NCBI GenBank assembly: GCA_019873645.1
Contig: JAIOAX010000002.1
Location: 1 to 64,000, forward strand
Direction of reading: 5' to 3'
Origin: Chloroflexota bacterium
Lineage (GTDB): Bacteria; Chloroflexota; Anaerolineae; B4-G1; SLSP01
Length of the DNA stretch: 64,000 nucleotides
The notes under the pieces are model-generated. The model had not been told where the DNA came from, did not search any database, and saw nothing but the letters and a program-made list of their open reading frames with translations. Made by a program: the position numbers and the translations under genes. This document shows positions 6,359 through 31,095 of this stretch, piece by piece; within the stretch, counting starts at the first letter, position 1; every line of letters begins with the position of its first letter.

Positions 6359-6386
6359 TTGACACGTCATATCCGGGGTTTATAAT
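6359..6386 (+). promoter_or_regulatory. Consensus promoter of the fluoride operon
   Basis: TTGACA (6359-6364) and TATAAT (6381-6386) with a 16-bp spacer match the sigma-70 consensus in all twelve positions. The predicted start, near 6392, coincides with the first base of the riboswitch aptamer. Confidence 0.85.
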
Positions 6387-6391
6387 TCTCA

Positions 6392-6457
6392 CCTGGGCGA
6401 TGAAGCTCGCTCGGCGTTAGCCGCACTGCCTGGAAATGGCTGACAGCTTCTAATGAC
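6392..6457 (+). ncRNA. Fluoride riboswitch (crcB motif) 1
   Basis: The aptamer has the crcB-motif order. GGGCGATGAAGCTCGC forms P1 with the conserved GCGATG, a second paired element includes ACTGCC..GGCTGA, and the AGCTTCTA segment can form the ligand-sensing pseudoknot with GAAGCT near the 5' end. It starts right after a perfect promoter and runs into an intrinsic terminator just upstream of the MFS gene. Known members turn genes on when fluoride binds; a transcriptional ON switch is inferred here because the terminator 5' arm overlaps the pseudoknot strand. Confidence 0.85.
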
Positions 6458-6488
6458 AACAGGATATTGTCGTTAGAAGCTGTTTTTT
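6444..6488 (+). terminator. Expression-platform terminator of riboswitch 1
   Basis: Stem CAGCTTCTAATGAC (6444-6457) pairs with GTCGTTAGAAGCTG (6469-6482) with one G-U pair, followed by TTTTTT. The 5' arm shares AGCTTC with the aptamer pseudoknot, so the two structures exclude each other. Confidence 0.9.
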
Positions 6489-6504: not shown

Positions 6505-7725
6505 ATGGACACTGAATCGCTTGAGAAAACGGCTGTGAATACATCGTCTGCGGAAGAAAAAAGCCTGGAGCGCAACGTGGTGGCTTTGGGCTGGGTGGCG
6601 TTCTTTGGCGGGTTGGCGCAGGATATGATCCAACCCATTCTGCCGGTGTTTTACACTTCGGTTTTGGGATTGAGCAAAGAGTTCATCGGGCTGATCGAGG
6701 GCTTGCTGACGACGATTGTGAGCCTGATGAAAATCGGCGCCGGTTACCTCTCGGACGCGCTCGGCGTGCGGAAAGCCATTGTGTTCGTCGGTTATGCGTG
6801 CTCGGCTGTGGCACGTTTTCTGATGGGCTTTGCCGGCAGCGGGGCCGCTGTGCTGGGACTGCGCTCCACCGATGGCGTCGGGAAGGGTCTCAAGGACGCT
6901 CCGCGCGATGCGCTGGTCGCCGGGTCGGCGGGCAAGCGCAAGCTGGGCTTTGCTTTTGGCATCCAGCGCACCCTGGATACGCTGGGATCCGCGGTCGGGC
7001 CGTTGATCAGCTATGGCTTGCTGCGCCTGTGGGTCGAACACACCAACAAATACCGCGAGGTTTTCCTGGTGGCGGGCGTCGTCGCTGCGCTACCGCTGTT
7101 GATCATCGGCCTGTGGGTGAAAGAACGCAAGCAGCCGGTCAACAAACAGGCCATTTCCTTGAAAGTTCTGCGCGGCCCCTTCGTCGGATTCCTGGTCGTG
7201 ATGCTCGTTTTTACGCTGGGCAATTCTTCGGACGCCTTCCTGATTTTGCGCGCCAACGACGTCGGTGTTGCTTCCGAGACGATCCCCCTGATCGTCGCCG
7301 CTTTCAACCTGGTCTCGGCGCTGGCGGCGATTCCGGCAGGAAAGCTCTCCGATCGCATCGGGCGTCGCAAAGCCATCACGATTGGCTGGGCGATCTACGT
7401 GATCACTTACCTGGGATTCGCGTTGATGAAAGTCGCCTGGCTGGCCTGGGGATTTTACATCCTCTACGGGTTGTATTATGCGTTCACCGAGGGTGTGGGC
7501 AAGGCCATGGTGGCGGAATTGGTGCCTGAGACCAATCGCGGCGCGGCCTTTGGACTGTACAATGCCTCCATTGGCGTCATGGCCTTGCCGGCCAGTTTGA
7601 TCGCCGGCGTTTTGTGGAACCGCGTCTCTTCGGCGGCGCCTTTCGCCTTCGGCGCGCTGATGGCTTTCATCGCCTTCGTCGGATTGTGGTTCCTGCCCCG
7701 AAAAACCGACCACCAGGAGGCGTAA
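6505..7725 (+). CDS. MFS transporter under fluoride riboswitch control
   Basis: A 406-residue major facilitator protein with a hydrophilic N-terminal tail (about 25 residues) and about twelve membrane segments. The segment RSTDGVGKGLKDAPRDALVA (about 116-136) is the conserved cytoplasmic loop of a drug/anion-type MFS group, and DRIGRRKA marks the loop between segments eight and nine. GGGAGG precedes ATG 6505. It is the first gene after fluoride riboswitch 1 and lies 10 bp before the reduced P-type ATPase, so the two are almost certainly co-transcribed. The substrate is unknown; fluoride or a compound linked to fluoride stress is inferred from the riboswitch alone. Confidence 0.85.
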   Translation: MDTESLEKTAVNTSSAEEKSLERNVVALGWVAFFGGLAQDMIQPILPVFYTSVLGLSKEFIGLIEGLLTTIVSLMKIGAGYLSDALGVRKAIVFVGYACSAVARFLMGFAGSGAAVLGLRSTDGVGKGLKDAPRDALVAGSAGKRKLGFAFGIQRTLDTLGSAVGPLISYGLLRLWVEHTNKYREVFLVAGVVAALPLLIIGLWVKERKQPVNKQAISLKVLRGPFVGFLVVMLVFTLGNSSDAFLILRANDVGVASETIPLIVAAFNLVSALAAIPAGKLSDRIGRRKAITIGWAIYVITYLGFALMKVAWLAWGFYILYGLYYAFTEGVGKAMVAELVPETNRGAAFGLYNASIGVMALPASLIAGVLWNRVSSAAPFAFGALMAFIAFVGLWFLPRKTDHQEA

Positions 7726-7735
7726 GCGCCGGACA

Positions 7736-9430
7736 ATGTCAGCCAACGCCGTCACGATTGTCCAGGAGGGCAAGCTCGTCAACACCGAGGTGTCGCAACT
7801 CCGTCTGGGTGATGTGGTCGTCGCGCAGGCCGGCGATGTCGTGCCTGCCGACCTCCAACTGGTCGAGGCGCGCGGGCTGGAGGTGGATGAGTTCGAGATC
7901 ACCGGCGAAATCATGCCGGTGCTCAAAAAGGTCGGCGCGGCGGATGCCGTTCTGTACATGGGCAGCCGCGTCGTGCGTGGCGCGGCCAAAGGGACGGTCG
8001 TCGCTGTCGGCGAGCACACCGAATACGGCAAGGTGTTGCGGGAGGATTGGGAAGACGAGAAACCGGCCAAATTTCCTCTCTTCAAGACACGCTATCTGGG
8101 CCTGATCCTCGCGCTCTTGCCCGCTGTGCTCATTGCCATTGTGCGCACCCACCAGGTTGTGGGAGCGGTGGGACTGTATGGATTGGCAGCGCTTGCGCTG
8201 ATCGTGCTGCAAAATGACGCGCTTTTCCGTTCCTATCTGACCAATGCCGAATTGAAAACCCTGCAACGGCGCGGCATCCGTATCCGCAGCATAAGCGCAT
8301 TGGCAAAGCTGCGTGACGTTGATCTGATGTGCTTCGACAAAACCGGCGTTTTGACCACACGGCGCATGGCTGTCAAAACGCTCTACTTTGCGGACAGGGT
8401 GGCACAGGGCGACGACCCGCTGGCCGACAAGGCAAACGCCGACATCGCTGCGCTCGTCAAGCTGGGCTGCGCGTTGGGCAACGATGTCCTTTTCTACGAA
8501 AAGCTGGATCTGGCCACGCCGGTAGACAAGGCGCTCCTGGCGTATGCAACGCACAATGGCGTGGACGTGCAAGCCACGCTGGCGCGCTACCAGCGCATCT
8601 ACGATGAACCCTTTGACTCCGAAAAGCGTTTTATGGCGTCCGGCTTTGCGCGGGATGGACAGGCACTTTACTTTCTCAAAGGTGATCCGGATGTGGTGCT
8701 GCGCAAATGCCGTTCCTACGTCACCACGGACGGCGCGCAGCACCCGCTGGATTGGGAATTTCGACGTTTACAGGATGGATACCTGGACGCCGTCAGCCAG
8801 CAGCGCGACACCGCCATTGCACTGGCTTACCGGACCGAGTCGCCGGATCTCCCGCCCACCGGCTACACGTTCCTGTGCCTGTTCCAATTGGAGAATCCTT
8901 TACAACCCGACGCCCGCGACATCGTGAGCGCGCTCGCTGCGCGGGGGATTCGCAGTATGATGCTCACCGGCGACCGGGCTGCCACCGCTATCAAGATCAG
9001 CGCCGCGTGCGGGATCACGGCGGGATCGCAGGCTTGCCTGACCGGGCGGGTGCTGGAGCGGATGGGCGCAGTGGAGATCGCGCGGCAGTCGGACTATTGC
9101 GCTGTTTTCGCCCAACTGATGCCCTCGCAAAAGGGCTTCCTGATCCGCTTCCTGCAACGCGACGGGCACCGCGTCGCTATGATCGGGGACGGCCCCAACG
9201 ACGGCATCGCGCTGCGGGCGGCGGATGTCGGGATATCGTATGTCAACGACAGTTCGCCTATCGCGCGCCGGCTGGCGAAGATCCTGATCCACGAGTTGGC
9301 CGATCTATCGCTACTCATCGAAAGCGCCTTCAGGATAGAGCGAAGATCCAGAGATTGGAAGGTTTTCAGGATTGTGATCATCGTTGCATCGTTACTCGGC
9401 CTCTATCTGTATGTTTATGCCTTATCATAG
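7736..9430 (+). CDS. Reduced P-type ATPase in fluoride operon
   Basis: 564 residues carrying a complete set of P-type ATPase cytoplasmic domains but few membrane helices. The actuator domain starts at residue 1 and its usual TGES is TGEI (56-59). Two helices follow (about 119-136 and 142-160), where the second shows LQN in place of a PEGL/CPC ion-binding motif. The phosphorylation site is DKTGVLT (D201), then KGDPD (315), TGD (411) and hinge GDGPND (484-489). One last helix (about 543-561) ends the protein. Helices M1-M2 and most of the C-terminal bundle of 800-900-residue relatives are absent. AGGAGG lies 15 bases before ATG 7736, unusually far. Intact motifs argue against a pseudogene; MFS partnership is inferred. 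Confidence 0.8.
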   Translation: MSANAVTIVQEGKLVNTEVSQLRLGDVVVAQAGDVVPADLQLVEARGLEVDEFEITGEIMPVLKKVGAADAVLYMGSRVVRGAAKGTVVAVGEHTEYGKVLREDWEDEKPAKFPLFKTRYLGLILALLPAVLIAIVRTHQVVGAVGLYGLAALALIVLQNDALFRSYLTNAELKTLQRRGIRIRSISALAKLRDVDLMCFDKTGVLTTRRMAVKTLYFADRVAQGDDPLADKANADIAALVKLGCALGNDVLFYEKLDLATPVDKALLAYATHNGVDVQATLARYQRIYDEPFDSEKRFMASGFARDGQALYFLKGDPDVVLRKCRSYVTTDGAQHPLDWEFRRLQDGYLDAVSQQRDTAIALAYRTESPDLPPTGYTFLCLFQLENPLQPDARDIVSALAARGIRSMMLTGDRAATAIKISAACGITAGSQACLTGRVLERMGAVEIARQSDYCAVFAQLMPSQKGFLIRFLQRDGHRVAMIGDGPNDGIALRAADVGISYVNDSSPIARRLAKILIHELADLSLLIESAFRIERRSRDWKVFRIVIIVASLLGLYLYVYALS

Positions 9431-9521: not shown

Positions 9522-9592
9522 CTGCGCAAGCGATGAGGCTCGCTTGGGAAACCCAACTGCCGGTCACCGGATGATAGCCTCTACCCGTCAAC
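9522..9592 (+). ncRNA. Fluoride riboswitch (crcB motif) 2
   Basis: A textbook crcB-motif aptamer. GCAAGCGATGAGGCTCGCTT makes P1 with the conserved GCGATG. AACTGCCGG pairs with CCGGATGAT, and GCCTCTAC forms the pseudoknot with GAGGC. Fluoride binding is expected to stabilise the pseudoknot and prevent the overlapping terminator. It governs an unknown protein and enolase, a gene known from other genomes as a fluoride-riboswitch target because fluoride with Mg2+ and phosphate inhibits the enzyme. Confidence 0.95.
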
Positions 9593-9616: not shown

Positions 9617-11399
<1,783 letters not shown>

Positions 11400-12683: not shown

Positions 12684-13361
12684 TTAGTTGTTCTTGATGG
12701 CGCTGACAAACGCGCGTACTTTCGCGTGATCTTTCCTCCCTTTCGTCGCTTCTACCCCGCTCGATACGTCTACACCCCACGGCTGCACCTGCGCGATGGC
12801 GTCCGCCACGTTTTCCGGTGTGAGGCCGCCCGCCAGTAGCAGACGACAGCGTTCCGCCAGCCAGCGCGCGATGGTCGCATCTGCCGTCAGTCCTGTGCCC
12901 CCCTTTTGTTGGGGGTGATAGGCGTCGAGAAGCAGATCAGGAGTAGACGGTAGACGGTAGACAGTAGACGGGGGGGAGGAGGGGATGGCAGCCAGGTAGT
13001 CCTCCAGCGCTGCTTGCGCCTCGGCGAGCGTTTGGGGGCGCAGGGCTTTGAAGGCATGCGGAGCCAGGGCCGCGACTGCGGCAGGCGTTTCCGCACCGTG
13101 CAGTTGCGCGAGGTCCAGGCCGGCGATTTCGATGATAGCGCGCACGGTGGCTACCGGTTCATCCACGAACACGCCCACGCAGCGCGGCGCCGCTTCCCCA
13201 AATTCTTCCCGGATTGCCCGGATGATCTCTCCCGCGCGTTCCGGCACAATGTAGCGCGGACTCGGCGGATAGAAGATAAAGCCCAAAAAATTCGCCCCGG
13301 CCTCGGCTGCGCAGCGCGCGTCCTCAAGATTCGTAATCCCACAAATTTTCACGTAGACCAT
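12684..13361 (-). CDS. trpF: Phosphoribosylanthranilate isomerase
   Basis: Catalyses the Amadori rearrangement in tryptophan synthesis. The 225 residues form a TIM barrel with the catalytic cysteine in VKICGIT (C7) and the general acid aspartate region [19 protein letters not shown] and VDVSSGVE bind the phosphate. Between barrel strands (about residues 129-143) lies a non-conserved stretch, [12 protein letters not shown], encoded by copies of the GTAGACGGTAGACAG word repeat also found between genes at 45307-45385. The barrel motifs after it are intact, so the protein is probably functional. It lies between trpC and trpB. Confidence 0.95.
12935..12977. repeat. In-frame GTAGACGGTAGACAG repeat inside trpF
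   Basis: Tandem GTAGACGG/GTAGACAG words form a short low-complexity block that stays in frame. The same words make up the intergenic stretches at 45307-45330 and 45362-45383. Confidence 0.85.
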
Positions 13362-13640
13362 AGTTATCTTCAGCCGACAGCCTTACTGAAAGCGGTTAGT
13401 AAAATCCGCGTCCCAAAGGTTTTGCGCTATTCACCGGGGATCTGGCGATCCCCTCGAAGCGAGAGAAGACAGAAATCTGCTCAATCTGCTCAATCTATTC
13501 CGAAAATACCACAGAGAACACAGAGGACACAGAGAAAATCTAAAAATTCTCCGTGCTCTCTGTATGCTCTGTGGTGAATAAGCTACCTGCACATTTTCAT
13601 CCTGGGTGGAGCGCATAGCTCATGATGTCTGCTGAAAAAA
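13362..13640. repeat. Repeat-filled spacer between trpC and trpF
   Basis: No gene. It holds hairpin GGGGATC-TGGC-GATCCCC (13437-13454), an imperfect inverted repeat built from CACAGAGAACACAGAGGACACAG words (13509-13575) and, at 13588-13632, a copy of a dispersed element reading CATTTTCATCCTGGGTGGAG then GCTCATGATGTCTGCTG. That element recurs three times at 27160-27510 and once at 57548-57590. Confidence 0.75.
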
Positions 13641-14450
13641 TTAGCGCAAATTCGCATGATCCGCAGTTAGCGTTGTGAATTGGCGCACTGTCTCCCCCAC
13701 ATCGCGCGCTGTGACCAGCGCTTCGCCCACCAGCATCGCATCCACGTTCATTGCCGCCAGGCGCACTACATCCTCCGGCGTGTGGATACCGCTCTCGGCA
13801 ACCAGAACCACATCGGCGGGCACGCGCGGGCGTAATGCGGCGGTCGTGTCGAGCGTGACGTGGAATGTGCGCAGATCGCGGTTGTTCACGCCGATGAGGC
13901 GCGGGCGCAGCGATAGCGCGCGTTCCAATTCCACCGCATTGTGGACTTCGATCAGCGCCGCCATACCCAGTTGGCGGATCAGCGCGTAGAGATTATACAG
14001 CGATGCATCGTCCAGCGCGGCAACGATGAGCAGCACGGCGTCCGCCCCAACAGCGCGCGCTTCATAGACCTGATACGCATCCACGATGAAGTCCTTGCGC
14101 AGCACAGGGATATCCACGGCCTGCCGCACGGCGCGCAGGTCGTCCAGGCTGCCCTGGAAGAAGCGTACATCGGTCAGCACACTGATCGCCGCCGCGCCGT
14201 TGGCGGCGTAGGTCTGCGCCAGTTTCACCGGATCAAAATTCGGGCAGAGCAGGCCCTTGCTCGGCGAGGCTTTTTTCACCTCGGCGATCAGGCTCACACC
14301 GGGCGCGCGCAAGGCCGCCAGAAAGTCGCGGGGCGGCGGGGCTGCTTCGGCTTCGTTGCGCCAGATGTTTAGCGGCCTGGTTTGCTTCTGCGAGGCGATT
14401 TCTTTGTGCTTGTGCGCGATGATTACATCCAAAATAGTGTCGGTTTGCAT
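13641..14450 (-). CDS. trpC: Indole-3-glycerol phosphate synthase
   Basis: Closes the indole ring from CdRP. The 269 residues match the family length, with the catalytic-lysine segment LIAEVKKASPSKG (about 53-65), VLRKDFIVD, LIGVNNRDL and the phosphate-binding AESGI and LVGEAL segments. The gene starts four bases after the methyltransferase stop, so it is translationally linked to the non-trp group upstream (toxin, antitoxin, methyltransferase) rather than to trpD, which lies 2.3 kb away. The next gene, trpF, follows after a 279-bp repeat-filled spacer. Confidence 0.97.
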   Translation of the reverse strand: MQTDTILDVIIAHKHKEIASQKQTRPLNIWRNEAEAAPPPRDFLAALRAPGVSLIAEVKKASPSKGLLCPNFDPVKLAQTYAANGAAAISVLTDVRFFQGSLDDLRAVRQAVDIPVLRKDFIVDAYQVYEARAVGADAVLLIVAALDDASLYNLYALIRQLGMAALIEVHNAVELERALSLRPRLIGVNNRDLRTFHVTLDTTAALRPRVPADVVLVAESGIHTPEDVVRLAAMNVDAMLVGEALVTARDVGETVRQFTTLTADHANLR

Positions 14451-14454
14451 AGGC

Positions 14455-15294
14455 TTACTCTATGACGCCGAAGCTGATTTTTCGTTCTTTCCGCGCCGTC
14501 AGGGTGAAAATCCACGGCAGCTTTCCGGCATACTGCGGATAGTGGTACCAGCGCTCAGTACAAGGTGCCATGCCGGGGAATAGCTTGAAAAACAGGCGGT
14601 CGTACTCGTTGAACGATTCCAGGCGCAGCCCGGCTTTGAGTAGTGCGTTGAGGATATCGCTGATGCCCCACGTCCATTCGTAGGAGGCGGTTGCGTGCCT
14701 GTAGGTGTCGTCAGCATAGTCGTCGCTGGCTTCCCAGTACCTTGGTTCGGCGGTGTGAAAGTACGAGTATAGCGGCTTCAGTTCCCCGGTTTCGGTCTCC
14801 TCGAAGGCGTTCCACATAGGATGCGATTCCATGATATAGAACAGCCCGCCCGGCTTGAGGAAGTGCGCGATGATACGCGCCCATGCGTCGAGATCGCGCA
14901 GCCAGCACAGTACACCGCGCGAGGTGTAGACGATGTCGAACTGCCCTTCCAGGACGTTGGGCAAGTCATAGATTCCCGCTTCGATAAACGTTGTGGCCAG
15001 TCCGATCTCTTGTGCCAATTGCCGCGCTGCTGCAATGGAAGCCGCCGAGAAATCCACACCCGTGACAATTGCGCCGCGCCTGGCCCACGAGAGTGTGTCC
15101 GTCCCGATATGACATTGCAGGTGCAGCAACGTCTTACCGGTCACATCGCCGACCTCGCGCAGCTCGATCTCGTCCAGCGCGCTGCCGCCGGCCTTGAGCA
15201 GCGTCACTTCCTCGTATGCTTCGACGTGGATGGGCGTGACTTCATCCCAATGAGCTTGATTCGTTTGTTCTGCTGGCGTCAAGGTGTTTTTCAT
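14455..15294 (-). CDS. Class I SAM-dependent methyltransferase
   Basis: 279 residues. The SAM-binding motif I appears as LLHLQCHIGTDTLSWARRG (about 56-74), followed by VTGVDFSAASIAAAR and the motif IV region FDIVYTSRGVLCWL. The sequence resembles small-molecule methyltransferases of the UbiE/Methyltransf_25 type; the substrate is unknown. Its ATG overlaps the antitoxin stop codon by four bases (ATGA), and its own stop is four bases before trpC, so it bridges a toxin-antitoxin pair and trpC in one minus-strand unit. An aromatic or tryptophan-pathway substrate would fit the neighbourhood but is speculation. Confidence 0.85.
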   Translation of the reverse strand: MKNTLTPAEQTNQAHWDEVTPIHVEAYEEVTLLKAGGSALDEIELREVGDVTGKTLLHLQCHIGTDTLSWARRGAIVTGVDFSAASIAAARQLAQEIGLATTFIEAGIYDLPNVLEGQFDIVYTSRGVLCWLRDLDAWARIIAHFLKPGGLFYIMESHPMWNAFEETETGELKPLYSYFHTAEPRYWEASDDYADDTYRHATASYEWTWGISDILNALLKAGLRLESFNEYDRLFFKLFPGMAPCTERWYHYPQYAGKLPWIFTLTARKERKISFGVIE

Positions 15295-30873: not shown

Positions 30874-30911
30874 CCCGTTTTTGCACCTTCACTCCGTAAA
30901 CTCCGACCCAT

Positions 30912-31095
30912 CCTACCTAAAGGAAACGGCCGGTTTTCCATGGCGGCTGGGCGATAGGGTATCACGGGAAACGGTGATGCCTCCCGTTTTGGAAAGGAGA
31001 TGGACGCGCGCTGCGCGTGTATGCGGCAGGCGCCGATGTGCGGGCGAGGACTGTGTATAAAGCGGCATTTCCTTTGCGGGAGATGCCGCTTTTTT
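30912..31095 (+). ncRNA. Structured leader of moaA (candidate Moco/Tuco riboswitch)
   Basis: A GC-rich non-coding stretch with several helices: GGTATCAC with GTGATGCC around GGGAAACG (30957-30982), then CCTCCCGTTTTGGAAAGGAG, then a final intrinsic terminator. Position ahead of moaA and the ATGCCTCCCG..GGAAAGGAG segment recall the molybdenum-cofactor RNA motif. The downstream tungstate transporter would fit the tungsten-responsive (Tuco) variant. I could not align it to a model, so the class is an inference; the existence of a leader and attenuator is well supported. Confidence 0.6.
31056..31095 (+). terminator. Attenuator terminator before moaA
   Basis: AAGCGGCAT pairs with ATGCCGCTT around a short interior segment and is followed by TTTTT, 45 bp before the moaA start codon. 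It allows premature termination controlled by the leader. Confidence 0.88.

Follow-up and report, generated by a model that had tools for sequence, protein, structure and literature searches.

Reduced P-type ATPases of a rare, single-origin family, encoded under predicted fluoride riboswitches and with a probable role in fluoride defence

According to a recent review, all P-type ATPases have six core membrane helices, with 7 to 12 helices in total (PMC10654040). Within the 64,000-nucleotide stretch of Chloroflexota DNA analysed here (positions 1 to 64,000 of contig JAIOAX010000002.1, assembly GCA_019873645.1; hereafter the window), one gene encodes a member of this superfamily in which only three of the helices M1-M6 can be recognized. 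Its catalytic residues are kept whilst its cation site and gates are gone, raising the question of what the cycle of such a protein is for. Our literature search found no three-helix P-type ATPase, and queries on FUPA/MFS fusions and on minimal or soluble P-type ATPases returned nothing matching within a coverage that leaves out the gene list of Baker 2012.

The reduced ATPase gene (7736..9430, on the forward strand, as are all window features from its promoter to the enolase gene) is an intact open reading frame of 564 aa, matched above Pfam cut-offs by E1-E2_ATPase (residues 2-135), Hydrolase (196-497) and Cation_ATPase (261-327). As the original prediction stated, nothing precedes the A domain in the protein; the P and N domains come after it, and hydropathy and alignment give the order A-M3-M4-P-N-P-M5. 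Three helices were detected by hydropathy (residues 118-136, 140-158 and 546-564), corresponding to the M3 and M4 pair between the A and P domains (8087..8269, also supported by conservation) and a C-terminal equivalent of M5 (9356..9424), in keeping with the predicted count of about three, one of them after the hinge. An AlphaFold2 model, used for helix positions only (mean pLDDT 59.8, with a poor A domain where the alignment was too shallow), agreed at low confidence, placing helices at 118-137, 141-159 plus 161-178 (with a break at N160) and 515-563. A PDB search with this model retrieved P-type pumps, with poor superposition. Above the ATG only 25 more codons are open (589 aa in total), so M1-M2 are not hidden in the frame, and the missed frameshift or truncation against which the original prediction had cautioned is rejected, the start being shared by orthologues of 560-567 aa. 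Five more P-type ATPases are encoded in the window's genome, and their open frames, at 783-978 aa, are far longer.

Translation confirmed every catalytic motif that had been read from the DNA, namely DKTGVLT (residues 201-207; 8336..8356), KGDPD (315-319), TGD (411-413) and the Mg-binding hinge motif GDGPND (484-489; 9185..9202), together with TGEI at the TGES position (56-59; 7901..7912) and LQN within M4 (158-160; 8207-8215). Across an alignment of seven reduced ATPases, DKTGVLT with its predicted phosphorylation site D201, TGD, GDGxND, KGDP and the Glu of TGE are invariant, and the superfamily motifs DKTG, TGD, GDGxND and TGE are thereby all retained. The Ser of TGES is replaced by Ile or Leu in every member, and the Asp of the P-domain DPP[R/K] motif by Asn (N387) in all aligned members. 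The PEGL site has become L-x-N (LQN, LVN or LPN), and its Asn (N160) is invariant in the intact members and in the seven aligned sequences, with a register uncertain by one because two alignments set it opposite the Pro or the Glu of PEG. Further invariant membrane residues are LLP in M3, F164 and, in or beside the C-terminal helix, R545 and Y557. Judged by these residues, a phosphorylation cycle looks possible for the reduced ATPase, but the canonical cation path does not.

Profile comparisons placed the catalytic part nearest to the P2A Ca2+ pumps, which are also its best structure matches, and the A, P and N domains align end to end with those of LMCA1 (lmo0841) and the SPCA1/PMR1 type. The reduced protein differs from them in being without M1-M2 and M6-M10 and in having LQN for PEGL, TGE[I/L] for TGES and Asn for the Asp of DPP[R/K]; the reduced ATPases do not have PEGL in M4, and the window protein scores 232.8 bits against TIGR01522, for which the equivalog cut-off is 798.3 bits. 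The P6 group (CtpE, FUPA23) is likewise a P-type family that was defined late and is present in Chloroflexi (PMC5615198), but its members have about 791 aa, ten helices and VPEGL in M4.

Eight further loci encoding the reduced ATPase were recovered at 40-53% identity, mostly from one class of Chloroflexota (L009/L019, which are two records of one gene, L010, L011, L020, L021, L022, L023 and L024). L009, L010 and L011 came from a GTDB contig scan, whilst 396 genomes of the class yielded six further members, one of which (G325) lies on the same contig as L009, so that nine independent loci are available with the window. Carriers are very sparse, amounting to 7 of 396 class genomes with that of the window included, and a search of the sister groups of three carriers returned no new members. 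Intact proteins have 559-567 aa and a common start point; L022 encodes 537 aa from its first usable start, the N-terminus in L023 is degenerate, and frameshifts interrupt L011 (a Bacillota MAG) just before the DKTG motif and L024 near GDGxND. At none of these loci did we find M1-M2 upstream, M6 downstream or any helix encoded by a gene of its own. In three genomes, moreover, the ATPase start comes immediately after a riboswitch leader, leaving no room for M1-M2. Phylogenetic analysis resolved the reduced ATPases as one clade (100/100 support) on a long stem apart from the full-length pumps, a set small enough that the exact parent is not placed. The reduced P-type ATPases are a rare, single-origin family with a conserved architecture.

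The window gene is the second of a two-gene operon that opens with a sigma-70 promoter (TTGACA-16-TATAAT, 6359..6386; 12/12 consensus matches) and a leader preceding an MFS transporter gene. Within this leader, Rfam, a structural descriptor and covariation point to a fluoride riboswitch aptamer (RF01734; 6396..6454), in which a P1 hairpin with an AUG loop forms a 6-bp pseudoknot (GAAGCU/AGCUUC) with the 3' strand; its Rfam score is 17.5 bits (E 0.21 when 4.6 kb were searched), under the gathering score of 34 bits. A second aptamer (9529..9585), downstream of the ATPase gene and before genes for a small protein and enolase, matched the descriptor and scored 29.8 bits (E 2.1e-5), also below the gathering score. 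The strict form of the descriptor (P1, AUG loop, 6-bp pseudoknot, TGAY..TA) recovered both window leaders and gave 0 matches in 4.0 Mb of random strand-sequence. When leaders were compared by their cores, whole-leader DNA alignment being unusable, the pseudoknot of the MFS-ATPase leader was found to carry a two-sided change relative to most others (GAGGCU/AGCCUC), and P1 covaries too. An intrinsic terminator follows (6442..6484; 18 pairs, fold -42.6 kcal/mol, z -4.3), its 5' arm including the pseudoknot strand. Placement of the 3' pseudoknot strand inside the terminator is the arrangement expected of a fluoride ON-switch, and the leader fits a predicted fluoride riboswitch controlling termination. 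Elsewhere in the window, a molybdenum/tungsten cofactor riboswitch (RF01055) occupies 30889-31015 (63.5 bits).

In seven of the nine loci a fluoride riboswitch stands before the ATPase gene or at the head of the gene run that contains it. Aptamer and overlapping terminator directly precede the ATPase gene in three (L011, L019 and L022) and a MutS-MutS-ATPase run in L010 and L024, whilst in L020 the aptamer heads a long same-strand run with enolase, the ATPase and a MutS pair, presumably a single transcript. Rfam matches reach gathering level in L024 (ahead of the MutS-MutS-ATPase run), in L023 (ahead of a dynamin-like gene) and in two ATPase-free relatives (L046/L047), with L010 near the threshold; the leaders of L019 and L011 have TAAT for TGAT and were recognized by reading, L011 also scoring 23.3 bits in Rfam. 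No fluoride riboswitch was found directly before the ATPase gene in L023, where the enolase gene just downstream carries one, and L021 is cut by the contig end. The L023 region has a further fluoride riboswitch (13295-13356) directly before a gene for a dynamin-like GTPase (13340-15265). From this placement under fluoride riboswitches one would expect the reduced ATPase to be produced only at raised fluoride, alongside enolase, MutS-like proteins, transporters and, in some cases, CrcB.

The gene neighbourhood points the same way. Behind the second aptamer, the window encodes a small conserved helical protein of 137 aa that belongs to no family (9617..10030; nothing above Pfam cut-offs) and enolase (10077..11399, identified by sequence), a classic fluoride target. 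Near the reduced ATPase, enolase and a MutS_V pair each occur in six of the nine loci, the 137-aa protein in five and a phosphoglycerate-mutase-like protein in four; no TM-rich gene is fixed downstream of the ATPase across the loci. Homologues of the 137-aa protein occur in L019, L021 and L023 and, next to enolase, in ATPase-free relatives (L046, L047, L048 and L049), where the two genes stand together behind fluoride riboswitches. In L046/L047 a fragment of an Nramp-type divalent metal transporter (L047 69-932) lies upstream of this unit, in the slot that the MFS and ATPase genes occupy in the window. The MutS-like proteins are paralogue pairs with MutS_V only, in tandem with the ATPase behind fluoride switches in L010 (821-3933), L020 (4684-7781) and L024 (4363-7394) and in tandem with it also in L021 (2-2970). 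Enolase, pyrophosphatase, Na+/H+ antiporters and HAD proteins are described fluoride-regulon genes (PMC11139923), as mutS and transporters are fluoride-riboswitch genes (PMC2864571), so that the fluoride assignment has support beyond the leader in the window.

The reduced ATPase resembles the CrcB/Fluc and CLC-F exporters in being a membrane protein under fluoride riboswitches; unlike it, these are not ATPases and have unrelated folds. They are the only fluoride exporters named in a review that mentions neither P-type ATPases nor MFS proteins (PMC11139923). CrcB was present in 4 of 9 ATPase carriers and 7 of 29 non-carriers, and in genome G280 it lies with a Na+/H+ exchanger behind the same fluoride switch. 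The window's own genome (G000) gave no CrcB match despite two fluoride switches in 64 kb, and a CLC-F motif search confined to the fetched loci gave no credible match. We rejected simple replacement of CrcB by the ATPase, for which no clear pattern emerged: CrcB is missing in five carriers, and its co-occurrence in the other four argues that the ATPase is not a simple substitute.

From the conserved catalytic residues and this regulatory placement, we infer that the reduced ATPase is induced by fluoride, undergoes a phosphorylation cycle and acts in fluoride defence, a role that we regard as probable. How it would act is far less certain. Tentatively, we favour ATP-driven fluoride export (as F- or HF), or the ATP-driven gating of a path for it, carried out by a homo-oligomer or together with a partner that the operon does not fix. 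An E1/E2-like cycle would move the three membrane helices, and N160, F164, R545 and Y557 could form an anion site in the place of the former PEGL cation site. A more specific form of this proposal, in which a minimal three-helix P-type ATPase itself exports fluoride at the expense of ATP, is somewhat more doubtful; we know of no precedent for a transporter with three helices that lacks M1-M2 and M6.

Speculatively, a non-transporting function is about as likely as export or gating, the protein being a membrane-anchored HAD-type ATPase or phosphatase, or a sensor or sink for metal fluoride, and a partner-coupled role comes next. P-type active sites bind metal-fluoride complexes as phosphate mimics. 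Solved pumps among the PDB matches hold MgF, AlF or BeF in the active site according to their titles, genes for HAD proteins frequently follow fluoride riboswitches (PMC11139923), and M1-M2, M6 and PEGL have been lost whilst the catalytic motifs were kept. Against such a function stands the conservation of N160, F164, R545, Y557 and the helices at about 40-50% identity, beyond the needs of an anchor.

It seems unlikely that the protein is an energizing or regulatory subunit coupling ATP hydrolysis to the MFS protein or to other transporters of the fluoride regulon, as KdpB does with KdpA, although a path within the ATPase itself would seem to need more than three helices. KdpB (P1A) has few helices and depends on a separate transport subunit. 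It nevertheless has seven helices (PMC10654040) against three here, its profile match to the ATPase is weak (2.2e-20, whole protein), and no KdpA-like neighbour is fixed. The original prediction, that the ATPase could drive its MFS neighbour, correctly placed the MFS gene (6505..7725; 406 aa, Pfam MFS_1 3.7e-45) 10 bp upstream, and the two genes share one promoter and riboswitch leader. The coupling itself was not borne out, since an MFS gene directly precedes the ATPase only in the window (one of nine loci), its place elsewhere being taken by the MutS-like pair, enolase or neither. Homologues of the window MFS (43-46% identity) occur in 20 of 60 related genomes that contain no ATPase orthologue (0/60), with no fluoride switch detected at their fetched loci. 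MFS genes of other subfamilies lie directly behind fluoride riboswitches in L019 (3592-4803) and L054 (18929-19978, with which L020 is grouped), which favours coupling to transporters in general; the L019 protein is only 24% identical to that of the window, and no membrane partner is fixed across loci. MFS transporters thus recur in the fluoride regulon but not as a fixed partner, and a fixed MFS-ATPase system was rejected.

It is less likely still that the protein is a P2A pump relic that handles divalent cations, Ca2+ or Mg2+, under fluoride stress: the nearest profiles and structures are indeed Ca2+ pumps (PMR1 type, LMCA1, SPCA1) and divalent cation transporters are over-represented in fluoride-exporter operons (PMC11139923), but M4 lacks the cation-binding Pro-Glu and M6 is wholly absent. 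That the gene is an ordinary pump in decay or distorted by assembly, to which the two frameshifted members, the two altered N-termini and the sparse distribution might point, is highly improbable: orthologues from independent genomes share its boundaries and a large number of invariant residues, which rules out truncation or frameshift, they form a single clade, and the promoter and riboswitch in the window are intact.

The reduced ATPase is therefore a candidate fluoride-defence protein of a kind not yet described, and its placement under fluoride switches offers a direct phenotype to test. If three-helix export were true, it would be the first fluoride pump driven by ATP and, among P-type ATPases, the smallest that transports. 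More broadly, the reduced ATPases may be a new class of protein in fluoride resistance.
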